Shown: positions 23,442 to 32,816 of the stretch, one piece after another
How positions within the stretch are numbered: position 1 is the first letter of the stretch
Layout of the letters: each line of letters starts with the position of its first letter
Origin: Candidatus Sumerlaeia bacterium
GTDB taxonomy: Bacteria > Sumerlaeota > Sumerlaeia > SLMS01 > JAHLLQ01
Length of the DNA: 64,000 bases
Direction of reading: 5' to 3'
Assembly: GCA_019634695.1 (NCBI GenBank)
Contig: JAHCAW010000009.1
Location: 1-64,000 of the forward strand
Notes under the pieces: generated by a model
Databases searched by the model: none
What the model was told of the DNA's origin: nothing
The model's input: the letters and a program-made list of their open reading frames with translations, nothing else
Program-made: the position numbers and the translations under genes

Positions 23442-24407
23442 ATGCGGTGGGACTTCAAGTTCATAGGCTTGACGGGATCGGCGCTCGTGCACCTGTTTCT
23501 GGTCGCGCTGATGGTCCTGCTTTCCTATAAGCCGGCACCCGTCATGACGGCCAGCGCCTCGCAGCCCGTCATGGCGCAAATGCTCGAGAGCCCGCCCCCT
23601 CCGCCGCCGCAAGTCCGGGCGACGCCGCCGCCTCCCGACCCGCGTCCCACCGCCACGCCGGAACCCGTTCGTCCGAACGAGATCATCGTTCCCGAGAAAC
23701 CCAAGGAAACCCCGACGCCCACGCCGACCCCGACGCCCCGGCCGACGGCGACCCCGACTCCCCGTCCAACTCAGACGCCCACGCCGACACCACGGCCGAC
23801 GGCAACCCCGACCCCCACTCCACGCCCGACCGCCACGCCCCGGGCGACACCCACGCCCACCAGCACCCCGCGGCCGACGGCGACCCCGCGCCCGACTCCG
23901 ACGCCGCGGCAGACAGCCACGCCCCGGCCCGCGATCGACCCCTCGAAGGCACAGGAACTCTACAATCAACTTAACGTGTCGAGCACGGGGCGCGCGCCGC
24001 GCGAGACGCCCCGTCAGGTCGCCCAGGCCGGCACGAGTCGGCCGGCTCCCCGCGGCGCCGCCGACACGCACAACTTCACCTCGCGTCCGGTCAACGTCGG
24101 TGCCACGGCGATGCACGGCGACGGATTGCCGGAGTACTACTCGGAAGGCGCGCTGCGCGCCGTGGGTCGCAACTTCAATGTGCCCGCGGCCGACAAGCAG
24201 AACGCGATCGCCATCGTGGAGTTCACGATTCTGCGCGACGGCACGCTGAAGGACTTCCGCATCGTGAAGTCTGCCGGCTCGTCGCGGCTCGACAAGATGG
24301 CGCTCGACGCGCTCGAGGCGACGAAACGCTTCTCGCCGCTGCCCGACGGCGTGCAGGGCTCGAGCATCCGCCGACGCATCACGTTCAGCTATCAGGACGC
24401 GTCCTGA
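23442..24407 (+). CDS. tonB: TonB-like energy transducer with long Thr-Pro spacer
   Basis: The 321-residue protein has an N-terminal anchor (SALVHLFLVALMVLLSY) with a His for ExbB contact. A Pro-rich spacer follows, about residues 50-165, made largely of TPTP/RPTATP units that span the periplasm. The C-terminal TonB-like domain is at about 240-321 (GTLKDFRIVKSAGSSRLD, then ALDALEATKRFSPLPDG). Because the C-terminus matches TonB rather than TolA it probably serves outer-membrane receptors; no receptor gene is in the window. The 3' end overlaps the membrane-protein cluster tail to tail by 23 bp. Confidence 0.9.
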   Translation: MRWDFKFIGLTGSALVHLFLVALMVLLSYKPAPVMTASASQPVMAQMLESPPPPPPQVRATPPPPDPRPTATPEPVRPNEIIVPEKPKETPTPTPTPTPRPTATPTPRPTQTPTPTPRPTATPTPTPRPTATPRATPTPTSTPRPTATPRPTPTPRQTATPRPAIDPSKAQELYNQLNVSSTGRAPRETPRQVAQAGTSRPAPRGAADTHNFTSRPVNVGATAMHGDGLPEYYSEGALRAVGRNFNVPAADKQNAIAIVEFTILRDGTLKDFRIVKSAGSSRLDKMALDALEATKRFSPLPDGVQGSSIRRRITFSYQDAS

Positions 24408-26115
24408 CGGCATCGCATTCCAGCCACACCACCTCGCCCGGTTGCACGCGCCGCGTCGTCGCGTCGTGCAGGCGCTGCAAGGAGCGTGGCAGGCGTACTA
24501 CCAGAAGAATGCAGAGGATCAGGATGATGGCCGACGGGGCGCGTGTGGAAAGCAGCGAATCCCAGAAGTCGTCCAGCATCCAAACGTGGCTCGCCCGGAC
24601 AGACTCGGCATGCCACACATCGGCCAAGACCCAGAAGGCGCAGGGCACAGCGAGAAAGAGTGTCCATCGTCCGACCAGACTGCCTGCGGATCCAAGTACC
24701 GATGCCAACGCCGACACGTGTGCGGTGGCGAGAAAGAGGACCAGCAGCAGATTCCGAAGAAGCGCGCCAAGAGAGTCGAACACATCACCAGTGGAGTGCG
24801 GAAGGACTTCTTTCAGGATTGCGAGAGCAAGCGCGGTGAGATCTCCCATGTCCGAGAATGAGCCGAAGAACAGAAAGGGTCGAAGGAGCGGCCAGCCGAA
24901 TGCCACGGCAGCAAGCGCAGCGTGGATCGGTATCAGGCGCCTTGCGAGGGACAGATCGAGCGCCCCACCGACCAGTGCGACCCGACGCCCGTGCCTCACC
25001 TCGACCATCACGATGACAAACGTCGCAACCGAGGTCGCCAGCATACACGACGCCACGCTGACCATCTGCTCGATTCGTCCCACACGAATCGAGACCATCG
25101 AGGCCACAATCACCACCGCGCCGAAAGTGCCGACGGCAAGCGCCGTCGGACGCGGAACGGACTTCCGCAATGCTTGTCGAATGCGATGACGCAGATCGCG
25201 GTCGAAGGCACGCGCCATGATGTTCGCGACGACACTTGCGGAACGATAGGGCTCTGGGTCGATAGACCGCACAAAGAGAGACGGTGCAAACCTGCCGGCG
25301 GCGCGCAGGAGCATCAGTGTCGCGGCAGCGGCAACCGCGACGACCCACAGCGACTGAACAAGGTTCTGCAATCGGACGTCGACCAGGCCCTGAATCGGAT
25401 GGATGCCGAGATGGGCGACGAGGCTCGCGCAGCCACCCCAAGCCCCGACCGCCAGTGGCCCAAGGAGCAGGATTGGCCATCGTGTCCGTCGCAGGAGGAA
25501 CCAAACCTTCAGGGCCGTGGTGATCGCCGCCAGGACGGCCAACCCTCCCACGATCACGATGCCCGCCAACAGCAGCGTCAGAGTATCGACGGTTATGAGG
25601 TGATTGCCCTTTGCGAATACCAGGCCGAGCACCGAGGCGTGCAGGAAGAGCGTCGCTCCGCCAACAATGGCACACGCCGGCATGATGCAGGAAGTCACAG
25701 TCGCCCAGAAGATGCTGCCAAAGGCCATCTCGCGGTTGGTCATGTGGGTGAGAACGAGTTCGCCGAGTCTCTCGGGGTGGCTCCAGCGCGACGAGAACGC
25801 GAGCAGATTCGCCGCGATGAAGAACGGCGCCGGGAGCACGCCGCAAAGCACGACCCACGCGAGCCCTGCCGTGAGCAGTGGTTCGAACTCGCTGAGCTTG
25901 GGCCCAAGCGCGAACGGCATCAGATGCACATGGAAGGCGATGTTCAGATAGCACGCCGTGCCGATAAGCAGGATGCCGACGCCCACCTGCATCAGAAAGA
26001 ATGCGCGCGGCACGCCGCCGATTCGCCACGGCGCTCCATGGACGACAATCGGATTGTCGCGCGCGTTGCGCAGCAGGCACCGCAGCTCGCCGAAGTAGGA
26101 GTCGGGTTGACTCAT
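24385..26115 (-). CDS. Tandem-paralog membrane protein D (last gene of four)
   Basis: The 576-residue protein has about 12 hydrophobic segments and shares its plan with the three genes upstream. The N-terminal motif RNARDNPIVVHGAPWR is followed by NLLAFSSRWSHPERLGELVL and TNREMAFGSIFW. In the middle comes AGRFAPSLFVRSIDPEPYRS, and the C-terminus is LQRLHDATTRRVQPGEVVWL. I do not recognise the family. The NP-x-R start and the segment about losing or sorting at T-x-R-E resemble ABC-2 permeases of planctomycete type (inference). Its ATG overlaps the stop of gene C (ATGA). Its 3' end carries a 66-bp stretch identical to the end of gene C. Confidence 0.85.
   Translation of the reverse strand: MSQPDSYFGELRCLLRNARDNPIVVHGAPWRIGGVPRAFFLMQVGVGILLIGTACYLNIAFHVHLMPFALGPKLSEFEPLLTAGLAWVVLCGVLPAPFFIAANLLAFSSRWSHPERLGELVLTHMTNREMAFGSIFWATVTSCIMPACAIVGGATLFLHASVLGLVFAKGNHLITVDTLTLLLAGIVIVGGLAVLAAITTALKVWFLLRRTRWPILLLGPLAVGAWGGCASLVAHLGIHPIQGLVDVRLQNLVQSLWVVAVAAAATLMLLRAAGRFAPSLFVRSIDPEPYRSASVVANIMARAFDRDLRHRIRQALRKSVPRPTALAVGTFGAVVIVASMVSIRVGRIEQMVSVASCMLATSVATFVIVMVEVRHGRRVALVGGALDLSLARRLIPIHAALAAVAFGWPLLRPFLFFGSFSDMGDLTALALAILKEVLPHSTGDVFDSLGALLRNLLLVLFLATAHVSALASVLGSAGSLVGRWTLFLAVPCAFWVLADVWHAESVRASHVWMLDDFWDSLLSTRAPSAIILILCILLVVRLPRSLQRLHDATTRRVQPGEVVWLECDAVRTRPDS
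24418..24483. repeat. 66-bp direct repeat, copy 1 (3' end of paralog D)
   Basis: These 66 bases are identical to 26127-26192. They encode the C-terminal LQRLHDATTRRVQPGEVVWLE of both paralogs, including synonymous positions, which suggests recent gene conversion or duplication. Confidence 0.9.
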
Positions 26116-27743
26116 CGCGGGTCGCCTTCCAGCCACACCACCTCGCCCGGTTGCACGCGCCGCGTCGTCGCGTCGTGCAGGCGCTGCAAGGATTGTGGCA
26201 GGCGAAAGACGAGCACGACGGCAACGATGACAAGCAGCGGTCCGATACGGGAGTCCTCGATGGCCCACCAGAACTTCGTACCGGGTCGCCCCGAGCCCAG
26301 GATGCGGAGCGACAGGAACCACCCGAGCACTGGCAGCGCGGTCGTCGTGGCCCATCGCACGCGCCGCCATCGGCCCGGACGAAGTGCCCAGGCGATCAGC
26401 GACACGTGCAGCAGGATCAGGACCGCCATCATCGCTCCCTGATAGAGGAGCTCGCCGCCGAAGGTCAGCCAGAAGGCGGGGGAGCGCTGGACAGATGGGG
26501 TGATCGAAAGCAATAAGGAGCCGAACATTACAAGAGCGAAGACCGCGTGTACCGGAAGCAGTCGCCGCAGGATGGAGACCTCGAGCGCGCCGCCGACGAG
26601 GGCCAGCTTCCCGCGCGCGCGTCGCTCGCGCCAGAGCAACAGCGCCGTGGCGATCGCGCCGGCCGCGAGGAACACCAGCGCGTGCGCGTCTGCGCGCGAG
26701 AGGGTGCCACCTCCGTGAAGGGTCGCCGCGCCGGTCAGGACGATCAACGTTGCGGCAATCGGAACAAACAGCACCAGCGTCGCGAGCCACGGCACGGGGA
26801 CGAAGGCACGCAGTTGCTCGCGCACCTGCGCTCGCAAGTCGCGCCGATAGAAGCGCAGCCCGCTGTTGGCGAGAACGCTGGCGGAGCGATACGGGTCCAT
26901 GTCCACCGCGCGCACAAAGAGCGACGGAGCGAAGCGGCCAGCGGATCGCACCATCGCCGTCGCCGCCACGATGCCGACCAGCAACGTCCAACAGATCATC
27001 GTCCACTTGTCGATGGGATGGCCGATCGTGCGGTCAAGAAACTCCATGCCGGCGAACCAGGCGAACCCCGTGGCGCCATAGTAGGCGGCGGCGAAGGGCG
27101 CCCACAACAACATGATCGGCCAGCGTGCCCGCATGAGATAGAACCAGGCCTTGACGGCCAGACCCACGCCCGTCGGCAGCAAGAGCAGTCCGACGAAGAG
27201 CACCGCGGAGAATCCGAATACCTGCTCCATGTCCGGTCTGTTCTCCAATTGATGAACGAACAGGCGGACGATCAAGATACTGCCGCCGAGCAGACAACCC
27301 AGTGGCACCAGACTGCCCGCGACGACGCCCCAGAAGATGCTGCCAAAGGCCATCTCGCGATTCGTCAGGCGGGTGAGCAGCATCTCGGCGATTCGATCGC
27401 GCTCGTTCCATCGAGAGGAGAAGACGAGCAGATTGAGCGCGGCCCAGAAGGGCGTTCCAAGGATTCCTCCGGTAACGTAGACCACGGTGCCAAGCACACC
27501 GATGTCGTTGTAGACCCCGGATTGGAATTCCCTTGAACCGAACGGGTAGAGCGAGAACTGGGCGGCCACCACCAGATAGGCAGCGGCTTGGAGAATCAGC
27601 CCGGCAACGATCAACTGCGCAAAGAAGAACAGACAAGGCACCGGACCCGATCGCCACGGCGCGCCATGGACGACGAGCGGATTGTCGCGTGTCCCGCGCG
27701 CCAGCGTCAGCACATCCCGAAAGTACCCACGCCACCCGGCCAT
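26112..27743 (-). CDS. Tandem-paralog membrane protein C
   Basis: The 543-residue protein has about 12 hydrophobic segments. It shows the cluster motifs RDNPLVVHGAPWRSGPVP, NLLVFSSRWNERDRIAEMLL, TNREMAFGSIFWG, AGRFAPSLFVRAVDMDPYRS and the C-terminal LQRLHDATTRRVQPGEVVWLE. It is closest to D by eye, especially at the C-terminus where the DNA is identical over 66 bp. Its ATG overlaps the stop of gene B by one base (TGATG), and its stop overlaps D by 4 bp. Its function is unknown; as with the others no ATPase gene is linked. Confidence 0.85.
   Translation of the reverse strand: MAGWRGYFRDVLTLARGTRDNPLVVHGAPWRSGPVPCLFFFAQLIVAGLILQAAAYLVVAAQFSLYPFGSREFQSGVYNDIGVLGTVVYVTGGILGTPFWAALNLLVFSSRWNERDRIAEMLLTRLTNREMAFGSIFWGVVAGSLVPLGCLLGGSILIVRLFVHQLENRPDMEQVFGFSAVLFVGLLLLPTGVGLAVKAWFYLMRARWPIMLLWAPFAAAYYGATGFAWFAGMEFLDRTIGHPIDKWTMICWTLLVGIVAATAMVRSAGRFAPSLFVRAVDMDPYRSASVLANSGLRFYRRDLRAQVREQLRAFVPVPWLATLVLFVPIAATLIVLTGAATLHGGGTLSRADAHALVFLAAGAIATALLLWRERRARGKLALVGGALEVSILRRLLPVHAVFALVMFGSLLLSITPSVQRSPAFWLTFGGELLYQGAMMAVLILLHVSLIAWALRPGRWRRVRWATTTALPVLGWFLSLRILGSGRPGTKFWWAIEDSRIGPLLVIVAVVLVFRLPQSLQRLHDATTRRVQPGEVVWLEGDPR
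26127..26192. repeat. 66-bp direct repeat, copy 2 (3' end of paralog C)
   Basis: Identical to 24418-24483; see that entry. Outside these limits the two genes diverge at once on both sides. Confidence 0.9.
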
Positions 27744-29401
27744 CAGCGGACACCCCGCGAGGAAGTGAACGTCAGCCAACCAACGCCACCCACCGGCACA
27801 TCCTGCATCGTCGCGTCGTGCAGACGCTGGAGCGAGCGAAAGCCGCGAACCGACGCGATAGCGAAGACGAGGAGGACCATCGTCCCGACGAGGGACGAAC
27901 CCAGCGGAGAGAAGAGCCCACCAGTACCGTCCGGCATCGAAGGTTCGACAAAGAGGCTCTCGAGGAACAGAAGGATTGGCAGTGCGCCATAGACTGCCAC
28001 GCGGACGGGACGACATCGGTCGGGACACAGAATCCAGGCGCTCAGGGACGAGTGAGCCATGAGCACCAGCAACACGCCCGGAACGGCGATGAAGACCACT
28101 TGATAGAGGATCGTCAGGATTCCGCTCGTGTTGGCCGTGGCGCGATACCGCTCCACAAGGCTGATGCCAAACGCCAGCAGGAGGAAGAGCAGGTGCGCCG
28201 GCTTCAGGCGACGCAGCAGCGACAGATCGAGCGCATCGCGGACGAGCGCAAGTCTGCCGATCGACCTGATCTCGCGGTACAGCACACTGAGCGTCGTGCC
28301 GAAGAGCGCGGCGAGGGATACGGCGAGGGCGGCCGCCATCACATTCGCCGGGCGAAGCAGGAGCATCGCAATCGAACCCGCCCCGAGCAGCAGCACGAAG
28401 CACCCGAAGGAGAATCGCCAGAAGACCGGCACAACCTGGCGCCTGAATGCGGCGAGGTTCGCCCGATGGTGGTTGTCTTCCTGACGGGCCGTGATGCCGC
28501 CCAGGACGCTCCCCATCCGGAACGGCAGGGGATCGATCGATGAGATGAATCGCGAGGGGGCAAAGGCCATGCCCGATCCGACGAAGTGCCACGTCATCGC
28601 CGTGCCGACAAGCAGGAGGCAGCCAAACACCCGGACGTCGTCGGGCACCGTCGGAAGCAAGTCCCGCAAGAGGGAGATTCCCAGGAAGTGACCGCTAAGG
28701 GCGACGACACCAGCGCCGCAGCACAGAACCGGGAGCACCACGAAGGTCGCTCCCCGCATGCGCGCCTCGCGCAGCCAGCTCCAGACCGCCAGCGCGGCGA
28801 TGCACAGTAGGCCCTCGAAGGCCAGAATCAGAATGGCCACCACCTTCAGGCCTTCGAACTCGCCAAGGGCCGGAACGCGGTGCTGCGGATGGAATCGATA
28901 GCCCCATGTCGTCAGCCACGGAAGCCAGCCGGCAACCACACAGGCGGCTGGGATCAGCATGCCCGCGATGAGTCCCCAGTAGAGCGCGCCGAACGTGATC
29001 TCGCGCGGCGTCATGTGGGTCTGGTACACGTCGGCCAATCGATCGGGCACACGCCAAGGCGACGAGTAGACCAGCAGGTTGAGCGGTATCAGCACCAGCG
29101 CGGCAACGACTCCCGCAGTCGCCATGAACAGGCCGCCCGCGTGCGCGAAGCGCTGAAGGGCACGGGGCAGCCCAAAATAGGCGCCTGTGTTCCCGTACGT
29201 CAGGCCAACCGTCTGGACGAACTCCACCACCTTGATTCCCCACCACGCGATCACGAGCAGCGCCACGAGGACCTGGAGCCAGAAGAACAGGTTGCGGCGC
29301 AGACCCCAGTGTCCCGGCCCGCCATACATGATGATGGGATTGTCGCGCGCCCGAAGCTCGAGGCGCAGCAGTTCGCTGGGGCGAATGCGTCTGGAGACCA
29401 C
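27743..29401 (-). CDS. Tandem-paralog membrane protein B
   Basis: The 552-residue protein belongs to the four-gene family but is its most diverged member. It has RARDNPIIMYGGPGHWG, NLLVYSSPWRVPDRLADVYQ, TPREITFGALYWG, FAPSRFISSIDPLPFRMGS and a C-terminal LQRLHDATMQDVPVGGVGWL. I chose the GTG at 29401. A strong AGGAGGTGA lies about 8-10 nt upstream, and this start puts the conserved Asn-Pro at residue 21, as in paralogs A, C and D; the ATG at 29425 would add eight residues. It starts 7 nt after gene A stops. Confidence 0.85.
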   Translation of the reverse strand: MVSRRIRPSELLRLELRARDNPIIMYGGPGHWGLRRNLFFWLQVLVALLVIAWWGIKVVEFVQTVGLTYGNTGAYFGLPRALQRFAHAGGLFMATAGVVAALVLIPLNLLVYSSPWRVPDRLADVYQTHMTPREITFGALYWGLIAGMLIPAACVVAGWLPWLTTWGYRFHPQHRVPALGEFEGLKVVAILILAFEGLLCIAALAVWSWLREARMRGATFVVLPVLCCGAGVVALSGHFLGISLLRDLLPTVPDDVRVFGCLLLVGTAMTWHFVGSGMAFAPSRFISSIDPLPFRMGSVLGGITARQEDNHHRANLAAFRRQVVPVFWRFSFGCFVLLLGAGSIAMLLLRPANVMAAALAVSLAALFGTTLSVLYREIRSIGRLALVRDALDLSLLRRLKPAHLLFLLLAFGISLVERYRATANTSGILTILYQVVFIAVPGVLLVLMAHSSLSAWILCPDRCRPVRVAVYGALPILLFLESLFVEPSMPDGTGGLFSPLGSSLVGTMVLLVFAIASVRGFRSLQRLHDATMQDVPVGGVGWLTFTSSRGVR

Positions 29402-29408
29402 TCCTGGC

Positions 29409-31034
29409 TCACCTCCTGCGGCCATCGATGAAACCGACCCCGCCAATCGGAACGTGACGGGTGACCGCGTCGTGCAGGCGCTGCATCCACGGGATGCCGC
29501 GAAGAACAGCGGTTGCGAGAAGCAGCAGCAGAAGCATGGTCACTGGAACCGTGGCGACCAGGACCGATTGAAACCCGACATAGTCATCGATCGGTTGCGC
29601 GAGGATGTGCGCACCCACGACAGCGCACATCGGAAGACCGACGTAGAGACTCAAGCGAACCGTTCGCAGGCGGCCCGGACACAGGACCCAAGCCAGCCAT
29701 CCGACATGCGCCACAAGGAGCAACGCATTGCAGAGCAGGACCATAAGGAAGGACCCGGGAAGCATCAGCAGAAGATAGTCATCTTCGAGAAACTCATTCG
29801 GGAAGTCGATGATCACCGTCACGCACCACAGGACAAAGAACGCCGCGTGCAATGGCAGCACGCGCCGAAGCAGCGAATAGAACAGCGCATCCCGCACCAG
29901 AGCAATGCCGCCTCGGCGACGGTGCTCGAGCACCAAGCAGGTGAACGTCGCCAGAACAAGTGCGGCAACGGCCCCAACGAACGGAGATGCCGTGTTGCGC
30001 AAGTCGGCACTCACCATCGTCGGTGCGCAGAGAAGGGCAAGGAACCCGAGGAGGGAGACGACGGACTTTCTCCACGCGAACGGCACGGACTCGCGCAGTT
30101 GCACGGCAAGGGTCAGACGAAGCGCGCGATCGCGGCGTGCGCCGATCATGCCGGCGAGGACGCTGGCATGCCGATGACTCTCGTCGTCGAGCGACCGCAC
30201 AAACAGTGCAGGGGCGAAGGCGCCCGCTGCGCGGAACAGGTGCCCCGTCGCCATCGTGCACGCGAAGACAAACCACGGCAGCAAGGCCAGTTGCTCGTAG
30301 GGCCACGGCACCAGGCCTTCGATCAGGAAGTACCCGGCAAGTGCATAGAAGAAGACCACAGTCAGGCCCACACCACACAACAGAGGCCCGAAGACGACGA
30401 GCAGCCATGTCGAGCCGCGCATCCGAAACCAGTACCACACGGTCACGAACAGCGCGGACGCAATCACCTCGCCCGCGATGACCAGCAGCACGAGCCCGAA
30501 CAGGGGATCCCACAAGGAATGAATCGCCCCGGTCACCTTTGGCAGCAGGTCCAGCACGATGGGAAGCGCACCCGCCACGAACGAGGCACCTGGAATCAGG
30601 AGGCCGCCGAGTGCCCCCCAGTAGATGCTGCCGAAGGCCATGTCGCGACGGGAGAGTCGCGTGAGAAACAACTCGGGCAGGCGATCGGGGTCGCGCCATC
30701 TCGAGGCGAACACCAGCAGGTTCAGCGGCACGAGAACGAACGAACCCAGGATACCCCCGAGGATGATCAGTTCGATTCCTTCGTCGGCGAGATGGCTTAT
30801 CCTCCGGCTTAAGGTCCAGGTGAGCCGGCCCAGGATTGCGTGCTCGAAGAACAGTTCGAGCAGCGACACCGCCATGCCGGTGGCAAGGAGTCCCGCGACG
30901 CCCACCTGCGCCCACCAGAAGAGGCGCGGCACCATGCCGAGCCGCCACGGCGCGCCGGCGACGACGAGCGGGTTCTGCCGGGCATCCCGCAGGAGACGGA
31001 GCAGCGTGCGCGTGTAGTCGATCGAACCGGACAT
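29409..31034 (-). CDS. Tandem-paralog membrane protein A (first gene of four)
   Basis: The 541-residue protein heads the operon. Its motifs are RDARQNPLVVAGAPWRLG near 16-33, NLLVFASRWRDPDRLPELFL, SRRDMAFGSIYWGALGG, AGAFAPALFVRSLDDESHRH and the C-terminal MQRLHDAVTRHVPIGGVGFI. About 11-12 membrane segments are visible. The ATG at 31034 follows a GGGGGA. The only upstream neighbour is a divergent RNA methyltransferase, 153 bp away, so the promoter must lie in 31035-31187. The conserved charged motifs between helices suggest a shared catalytic or transport role, not a structural one. Confidence 0.85.
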   Translation of the reverse strand: MSGSIDYTRTLLRLLRDARQNPLVVAGAPWRLGMVPRLFWWAQVGVAGLLATGMAVSLLELFFEHAILGRLTWTLSRRISHLADEGIELIILGGILGSFVLVPLNLLVFASRWRDPDRLPELFLTRLSRRDMAFGSIYWGALGGLLIPGASFVAGALPIVLDLLPKVTGAIHSLWDPLFGLVLLVIAGEVIASALFVTVWYWFRMRGSTWLLVVFGPLLCGVGLTVVFFYALAGYFLIEGLVPWPYEQLALLPWFVFACTMATGHLFRAAGAFAPALFVRSLDDESHRHASVLAGMIGARRDRALRLTLAVQLRESVPFAWRKSVVSLLGFLALLCAPTMVSADLRNTASPFVGAVAALVLATFTCLVLEHRRRGGIALVRDALFYSLLRRVLPLHAAFFVLWCVTVIIDFPNEFLEDDYLLLMLPGSFLMVLLCNALLLVAHVGWLAWVLCPGRLRTVRLSLYVGLPMCAVVGAHILAQPIDDYVGFQSVLVATVPVTMLLLLLLATAVLRGIPWMQRLHDAVTRHVPIGGVGFIDGRRR

Positions 31035-31973: not shown

Positions 31974-32057
31974 GGGGTGTCTTGGTGACGCGGTTGGGAG
32001 GGCCGAGATTCGGTTCGCTCGACATTCTTGTCGGCCCGGCTGCATTCCGATTTTCCG

Positions 32058-32816
32058 ATGCACCTGCTCTATCTCGACGACGCTGGTTCGGCCCATAACC
32101 CCGCCGAGGAATACCTGGTCCTCGGCGGGGTCTCTGTTTTTGAGGCGCAGGCGTACTGGTTTACACAAGAGCTGGACAAGCTGGCGACGACGATCTGCCC
32201 TTCAGACCCGCACGGCGTCGAGTTCCACGCGTCCGAGATATTCTCCCGACGCAAGCACCCGTGGAAGGACATGACTCGGGAAGAGGCCCAAGGGGTGATC
32301 AAGGCAGTTCTTGCTGTTGCGAGGAACTCGTTCGACACGGCCCGCTTCTTCGCGTGCGCCATCCACAAGTCGTCGTTCCCGGGTCGGGATCCGATGGAGG
32401 TTGCGTTCGAGGACCTGTGCAGTCGCTTCGATCGGTATCTGGCGCGACTGAGAGGCGACGGCGACCGCCAGCGGGGACTCTTGATCCTGGACGAGAGCGC
32501 GCACGAGACCACGCTCCAACGCATGGCCCTCGAGTTCCGGACGCTTGGCACGAAGTGGGGTGTGGTTCGCAATCTTGCCGAGACGCCGCTGTTCGTCAAC
32601 TCGCGGGCGTCGCGTCTCGTCCAGGTTGCCGACCACATCGCCTATGCGGTCTTCCGACGCTACAACGCGTGCGATGCACGCTACTTCGATGTGATCGCTT
32701 CCCGATTCGACAGCAGCGACGGAGTCGTCCACGGGCTGGCGCACAAGCAACTCGTCGACCCATCCTGCATGTGTCCTGCCTGCATGAGCCGTCGCGTCGG
32801 AAGGCCCACTGCTTGA
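32058..32816 (+). CDS. DUF3800 domain protein
   Basis: The 252-residue soluble protein begins MHLLYLDDAGSAHNP, the canonical DUF3800 start (YxDESG-type), here with Asp-Asp in place of Asp-Glu. GLLILDESAHE near 140 and the C-terminal VQVADHIAYAVFRRYN, containing the third acidic residue, complete an RNase H-like fold. A Cys-rich tail (SCMCPACMSRR) is an extra. The family is scattered, often near mobile or defence loci, and its activity is not established. The ATG at 32058 was preferred over a TTG 30 bp upstream. It lies between an RNA methyltransferase and ispG, an ordinary setting. Confidence 0.88.
   Translation: MHLLYLDDAGSAHNPAEEYLVLGGVSVFEAQAYWFTQELDKLATTICPSDPHGVEFHASEIFSRRKHPWKDMTREEAQGVIKAVLAVARNSFDTARFFACAIHKSSFPGRDPMEVAFEDLCSRFDRYLARLRGDGDRQRGLLILDESAHETTLQRMALEFRTLGTKWGVVRNLAETPLFVNSRASRLVQVADHIAYAVFRRYNACDARYFDVIASRFDSSDGVVHGLAHKQLVDPSCMCPACMSRRVGRPTA

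Follow-up and report, generated by a model that had tools for sequence, protein, structure and literature searches.

Transmembrane subunits of ABC-2-type exporters follow a common plan, consisting of a six-helix domain or a 6+6 pair, a cytoplasmic N-terminus and a coupling loop between the second and third transmembrane helices (TM2 and TM3). The closest described relatives of the proteins presented here are permeases of the GldF / ABC2_membrane_2-3 kind, especially those of Sumerlaeota that start with ‘DNPILxRELRRRMRG’ and accompany a DrrA/GldA-like ATPase, adjoining or not. The two groups are alike in their length of ~500–580 aa, their 12 predicted helices, the NP motif before TM1 and an ExLxxTxxSxxExxxG-like signature in the TM2–TM3 cytoplasmic loop. 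ATPases that serve more than one permease are documented for importers, namely MsiK, common to several permeases in Streptomyces (PMC6167110), and FhuC, which works with Isd in Staphylococcus (PMC10147376). Both are importers with experimental support, whereas the ATPase sharing considered below for Sumerlaeota is proposed by analogy with them.

Four tandem paralogues

The window (the whole stretch of 64,000 nucleotides analysed here) belongs to a 4.35-Mb, 86% complete assembly, hereafter G000. Between 24385 and 31034 it carries four closely packed minus-strand open reading frames, arranged head to tail:

24385..26115, minus strand: gene A, 576 aa, ATG start; 12-TM ABC-2-like protein, last in the array
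26112..27743, minus strand: gene B, 543 aa, ATG start; 12-TM ABC-2-like protein
27743..29401, minus strand: gene C, 552 aa, GTG start; most divergent of the four copies
29409..31034, minus strand: gene D, 541 aa, ATG start; first in the array

The stop of B overlaps the start of A (4 bases), the start of B overlaps the stop of C (1 base), and 7 bases separate C from D; gene A is convergent with tonB, whose 3' end it overlaps by 23 bases. GC contents at codon positions 1, 2 and 3 (0.66–0.68, 0.45–0.49 and 0.75–0.81) are typical of coding DNA. Pairwise identity is ~30–38%, with some 60 invariant columns in an alignment of the four, and the E-values between whole copies (1e-48 to 1e-73) lie far beyond chance; the four overlapping or abutting paralogues of the preliminary description are therefore confirmed in their reading frames, sizes and order. 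With copy D as the query, the only close copies in its own genome were the four of the array, and a later profile found a fifth family gene on contig C33, which is single, very divergent and encodes 566 aa.

The motifs that had been listed as shared by the four proteins in the same order are real, but some of the quoted forms belong to one or two copies only. The C-terminal LQRLHDATTRRV is exact in A and B alone, its counterparts being LQRLHDATMQDV in C and MQRLHDAVTRHV in D, and gene C carries ARDNPIIMYGGPGHW, which deviates from the form quoted. Two regions, located here on gene B, are central to the comparison with ABC-2 permeases:

27645..27695, minus strand: N-terminal cytoplasmic motif of gene B, residues 17–33, TRDNPLVVHGAPWR region
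27330..27434, minus strand: TM2–TM3 cytoplasmic loop of gene B, residues 104–138, ...RDRIAEMLLTRLTNREMAFGSIFW

The first occupies the same position as ‘DNPILxRELRRRMRG’ at the start of ATPase-linked ABC-2 permeases. The second corresponds to the signature that ABC-2 proteins carry between TM2 and TM3, and is presumed to form the coupling helix.

Elsewhere in the window, a DUF3800 protein without a PADLOC match is encoded at 32028–32816, between an RNA-methyltransferase-like and an ispG-like gene.

Predicted topology and family-model searches

Averaged hydropathy and conserved charge across 19 aligned members predict 12 hydrophobic segments, with positive charge on alternate loops and both termini inside (N-in/C-in). 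The layout is one of 6+6 helices, and the hydropathy and charge pattern agrees with the ABC-2 plan outlined above; an internal sequence repeat between the N- and C-terminal halves of the 12-TM family was sought and none was detected. Every conserved motif is predicted to be cytoplasmic: the NP motif precedes TM1, ELxLTRxSxREIxFG occupies the TM2–TM3 loop, FAPxxFxRxxDPE and ALVxGxLxxS lie between TM6 and TM7 and between TM8 and TM9, respectively, and QRxHD is found in the tail.

Pfam returned nothing relevant for the 19 members and no ABC-2 match at E ≤ 1 in any of them, which supports the initial view of an unrecognised family. NCBIfam gave no ABC-2 match for genes A–D, the PADLOC models of known anti-phage defence were not matched, and PHROGs, PDB sequences and a tblastn search of plasmids yielded nothing usable for the family. 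The family is thus real and undescribed, and since no Pfam ABC-2 model recognises it, it falls outside the existing Pfam ABC-2 families; being absent from the public models searched, its members would otherwise remain hypothetical proteins. Structure prediction followed by Foldseek, which the preliminary description had suggested as a check, added little: AlphaFold2 models from alignments of 4 and 7 sequences reached pLDDT values of 51 and 54, too weak to interpret, and Foldseek gave no match at E ≤ 0.001 on these low-pLDDT models, its lists consisting mostly of unrelated helical proteins and its top-probability entry being ABCG5/G8 (0.44, not significant).

Remote homology to ABC-2 permeases

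Profile–profile comparison upholds the proposal, made from the letters of the window, that the first half resembles ABC-2 permeases. When aligned by hhalign with the ABC-2 permeases found beside orthologues of an orphan ATPase discussed below, most of which match Pfam ABC2 models, the first half gave p = 1.5e-6 and a probability of 90% over 137 columns that begin at the NP motif, extend through TM3 and keep the same order; the match drops to p = 4.8e-5 with a larger comparison set. Two sets of recognised ABC-2 proteins matched at the coupling-loop signature (p = 7e-4 and 8e-3), and the controls, MBOAT proteins and binding-protein-dependent permeases, gave p values of at least 0.13. When 114 polytopic proteins were ranked by their match, the top 24 were all ABC-2 proteins or ABC-2-like/NP-type relatives, each match spanning the TM2–TM3 loop, and the first non-ABC-2 protein appeared at p = 0.029; as the pool over-represents ABC-2 proteins, this ranking is supportive rather than absolute. 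The second half matched nothing in either the profile comparisons or the ranking.

Of the profiles compared, the one that matched the first half best (p = 4e-7) was that of short stand-alone NP proteins of 277–326 aa, encoded downstream of ruvC in genomes G008 and G010. They are half the size of the 12-TM family, are likewise without an adjoining ATPase, and match the canonical ABC-2 set with p = 5e-9.

That most ABC-2 groups match only over ~35 residues, with no sequence-level matches, is what one would expect of an unrelated polytopic transporter or flippase whose TM2–TM3 loop had become ABC-2-like by convergence. This reading is very improbable given the extent and preserved order of the match to the ATPase-linked group and the clean ranking. 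Judged from the profiles, the family very probably shares a remote ancestry with ABC-2 permeases. Its place is among transporters of a known kind and not in a new class of machine, so that the ‘new system’ of the preliminary description does not stand as stated, the missing linked ATPase being weak evidence of novelty. From the ‘DNPILxRELRRRMRG’ permeases the 12-TM family nevertheless differs in several respects: it has no Pfam ABC2 match, RELRRRMRG is replaced by an xHGAPWR-like sequence and EKEK by RxxDRL, the motifs FAPxxFxRxxDPE, ALVxGxLxxS and QRxHD are added, and its genes occur in tandem arrays with no plausible partner ATPase adjoining in the loci read.

A proposed ATPase partner encoded in trans

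No plausible partner ATPase was found adjoining the array in the window or the loci of relatives, as had been noted at the outset for the window, the sole exception being an importer-type ATPase/permease pair near a contig-end family fragment in G008. The G000 genome has 48 ABC ATPase matches. One of these, at G000:C41:56598-57524 (L170:3095-4024), is a DrrA/GldA-like ATPase (hereafter the C41 ATPase) that has no membrane neighbour and whose orthologues are 77–91% identical across the order. The orthologue adjoins an ABC-2 permease in G013, G014, G019, G021 and G022, and in other Sumerlaeota families it is followed directly by the 12-TM ‘DNPILxRELRRRMRG’ permease; it stands alone in G000–G004, G007, G008 and G011. 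The canonical NP-type ABC-2 permease of G000 is encoded on a different contig, C36 (L235:4792-6363), and in most genomes with a lone ATPase the canonical permease also sits elsewhere, unlinked. Split ABC-2 systems are normal in this order, and because the canonical permease and ATPase are themselves unlinked here, the missing linked ATPase does not speak for a new mechanism. A simple replacement of a lost canonical permease by the family was tested and rejected, since most family-bearing genomes retain that permease at an unlinked site.

The C41 ATPase and/or the canonical permease is present in 12/12 genomes with the 12-TM family and in 6/27 without it (Fisher 5e-6, a value that ignores phylogeny when most family-bearing genomes come from one order). 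G005 and G006, of the same order, have none of the three. G009 and G010, both incomplete (75% and 80%), contain the family with no C41 orthologue detected.

These observations are best explained if A–D are derived ABC-2-type exporter transmembrane subunits of 12 helices each, of which the first six would retain the ABC-2 plan with its cytoplasmic NP motif before TM1 and its TM2–TM3 coupling loop. Having no ATPase of their own nearby, they would probably work with, and draw energy from, an ATP-binding protein encoded elsewhere. We give this model as a whole, derived transmembrane subunits plus an ATPase in trans, a probability of roughly 0.45. The best candidate for the motor would be the conserved orphan C41 ATPase, shared with the canonical unlinked permease on C36; against this, the C41 ATPase already has a permease of its own and is not partnerless. 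The subunits might instead be driven by one or more other unlinked ATPases, some of the 48 matches being DrrA-like and without an obvious membrane neighbour (e.g., on C54); the crude search for such orphan ATPases is reliable only in part, since genes are missed when ORFs are picked in GC-rich DNA. A motor other than C41 is distinctly unlikely, as no other candidate has been shown to track the family, C41 being the only one traced across genomes.

It is also conceivable, if unlikely, that ATPase coupling has been lost and that these ABC-2-derived proteins act as passive lipid or solute conduits, as membrane scaffolds or as regulators of the canonical permease. The loci examined have no linked ATPase, the acidic EKEK stretch that marks the coupling loop of canonical permeases is missing or altered, and the second half is unrecognisable as ABC-2; however, the TM2–TM3 loop, where an ATPase would make contact, shows some of the highest conservation within the family, which would be unexpected in uncoupled proteins, and the family is confined to genomes with a canonical ABC-2 system. 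Should the model of an ATPase in trans prove correct, a candidate phylum would have separated an ABC-2 exporter from its ATPase, and permeases of this kind would have multiplied and diversified on several occasions. The sharing of one motor among permeases, a principle known for importers, would then apply to exporters too, with a candidate partner that is directly testable.

Distribution and history of the arrays

A search of 40 Sumerlaeota genomes with the 19-member profile found the family in 12, chiefly of one order (the relatives named here are Candidatus Sumerlaeota MAGs), the member in G012 being a weak match of 393 aa. Outside Sumerlaeota, the best E-value obtained with an earlier 15-member profile in a sample of 291 genomes was ~2e-3, i.e., at chance level. 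Tandem copies number four in G000 and G002, three in G008 and two in G007; G009 has two copies, one of them a broken gene at a contig end, and G001, G003, G004, G010 and G019 have single genes. The broken copy (L033:1-1331, G009:C347) contains an in-frame TAG and is either a pseudogene or an assembly error.

The closest genome, G001, is of the same genus and carries one copy at the same locus, flanked as in the window by parA/parB-exbB-exbD-tonB on one side and an RNA-methyltransferase-like gene on the other. In a maximum-likelihood tree the copies of G002, G008 and G007 cluster by genome with full support, and the single gene of G001 is nested among the four of the window; arrays therefore originated more than once, and copies were probably lost in G001. 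A hetero-oligomer or substrate diversification had been thought to follow from the four-copy operon. Since G001 has one gene and arrays of four, three and two originated separately in other lineages, the operon does not by itself imply a fixed hetero-oligomer, and the copy numbers are more readily reconciled with diversification than with a fixed four-subunit machine, although the copies may still form hetero-oligomers. Under the model of an ATPase in trans, this repeated and independent tandem amplification, in which the membrane core diverged strongly, may have produced permeases for different substrates.

Conserved neighbours such as an ATPase, a search for which had also been suggested, were not found at the family loci. 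The contexts are genus-specific, with tonB and the RNA-methyltransferase-like gene in G000 and G001, an MBOAT-like gene in G003 and G004, glnE in G007 and G009, and a groEL-like gene in G008.

Probable gene conversion at the ends of neighbouring copies

Genes A and B are 65% identical overall yet share an exact repeat at their 3' ends:

24418..24483, minus strand: 66-bp tract at the 3' end of A, identical to the tract in B
26127..26192, minus strand: 66-bp tract at the 3' end of B, identical to the tract in A

Because part of the C-terminal identity of A and B is an exact DNA repeat, it does not reflect functional constraint purely, and the repeat is probably the product of gene conversion. 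Copies 1 and 2 of G008 (L064:6962-10078) have 77 bp in common at the 3' end, and copies 1 and 2 of G002 (L029:6536-11572) have 50 bp in common near the 5' end. Where the encoded amino acids are identical, fourfold-degenerate sites are saturated in the cores (26–44% identical) and reach 80–90% identity in the ends of neighbours. Three ends survive Bonferroni correction for 32 tests: the C-terminal ends of A/B in G000 (17/19 sites identical, p = 1.5e-4) and in G008 (19/21, p = 2.9e-6), and the N-terminal end of B/C in G002 (12/15, p = 1.6e-4); none of the 11 between-genome control pairs fell below p = 0.018. These silent sites would be explained most simply if short conversion events had affected the gene ends in each of three independent arrays.

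The affected ends encode cytoplasmic tails, and the conversions, which would keep the tails of neighbours alike, would fit a shared partner. Their recurrence is a concrete sign that the copies may share such a partner at the cytoplasmic face. However, conversion that is neutral, combined with its purging from the core, would suffice to explain the homogenised ends. It is improbable that the arrays are cassettes with variable cores and conserved ends, in which recombined tails plug diverse cores into one cytoplasmic partner, giving exchangeable permeases on one motor.

Other ABC-2-related genes in Sumerlaeota

Further stand-alone NP-type membrane proteins, all very divergent, are encoded at L145:6906-8606, L146:5962-6783, L147:481-1662 and L150:4739-8124, with one tandem pair among them, and the profile probably does not capture the whole family. 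On contig C54 of G000, a NatA-like ATPase (L164:2983-3801) has no membrane gene nearby; in G003 and G004 the similar gene is paired with one for a NatB-like permease. Finally, two ABC-2 permeases of ~600 aa (L214:2383-4173 and L215:2288-4123) adjoin a second ATPase paralogue and carry the NP and coupling-loop motifs twice each, apparently as fused, duplicated 6+6 TM proteins.
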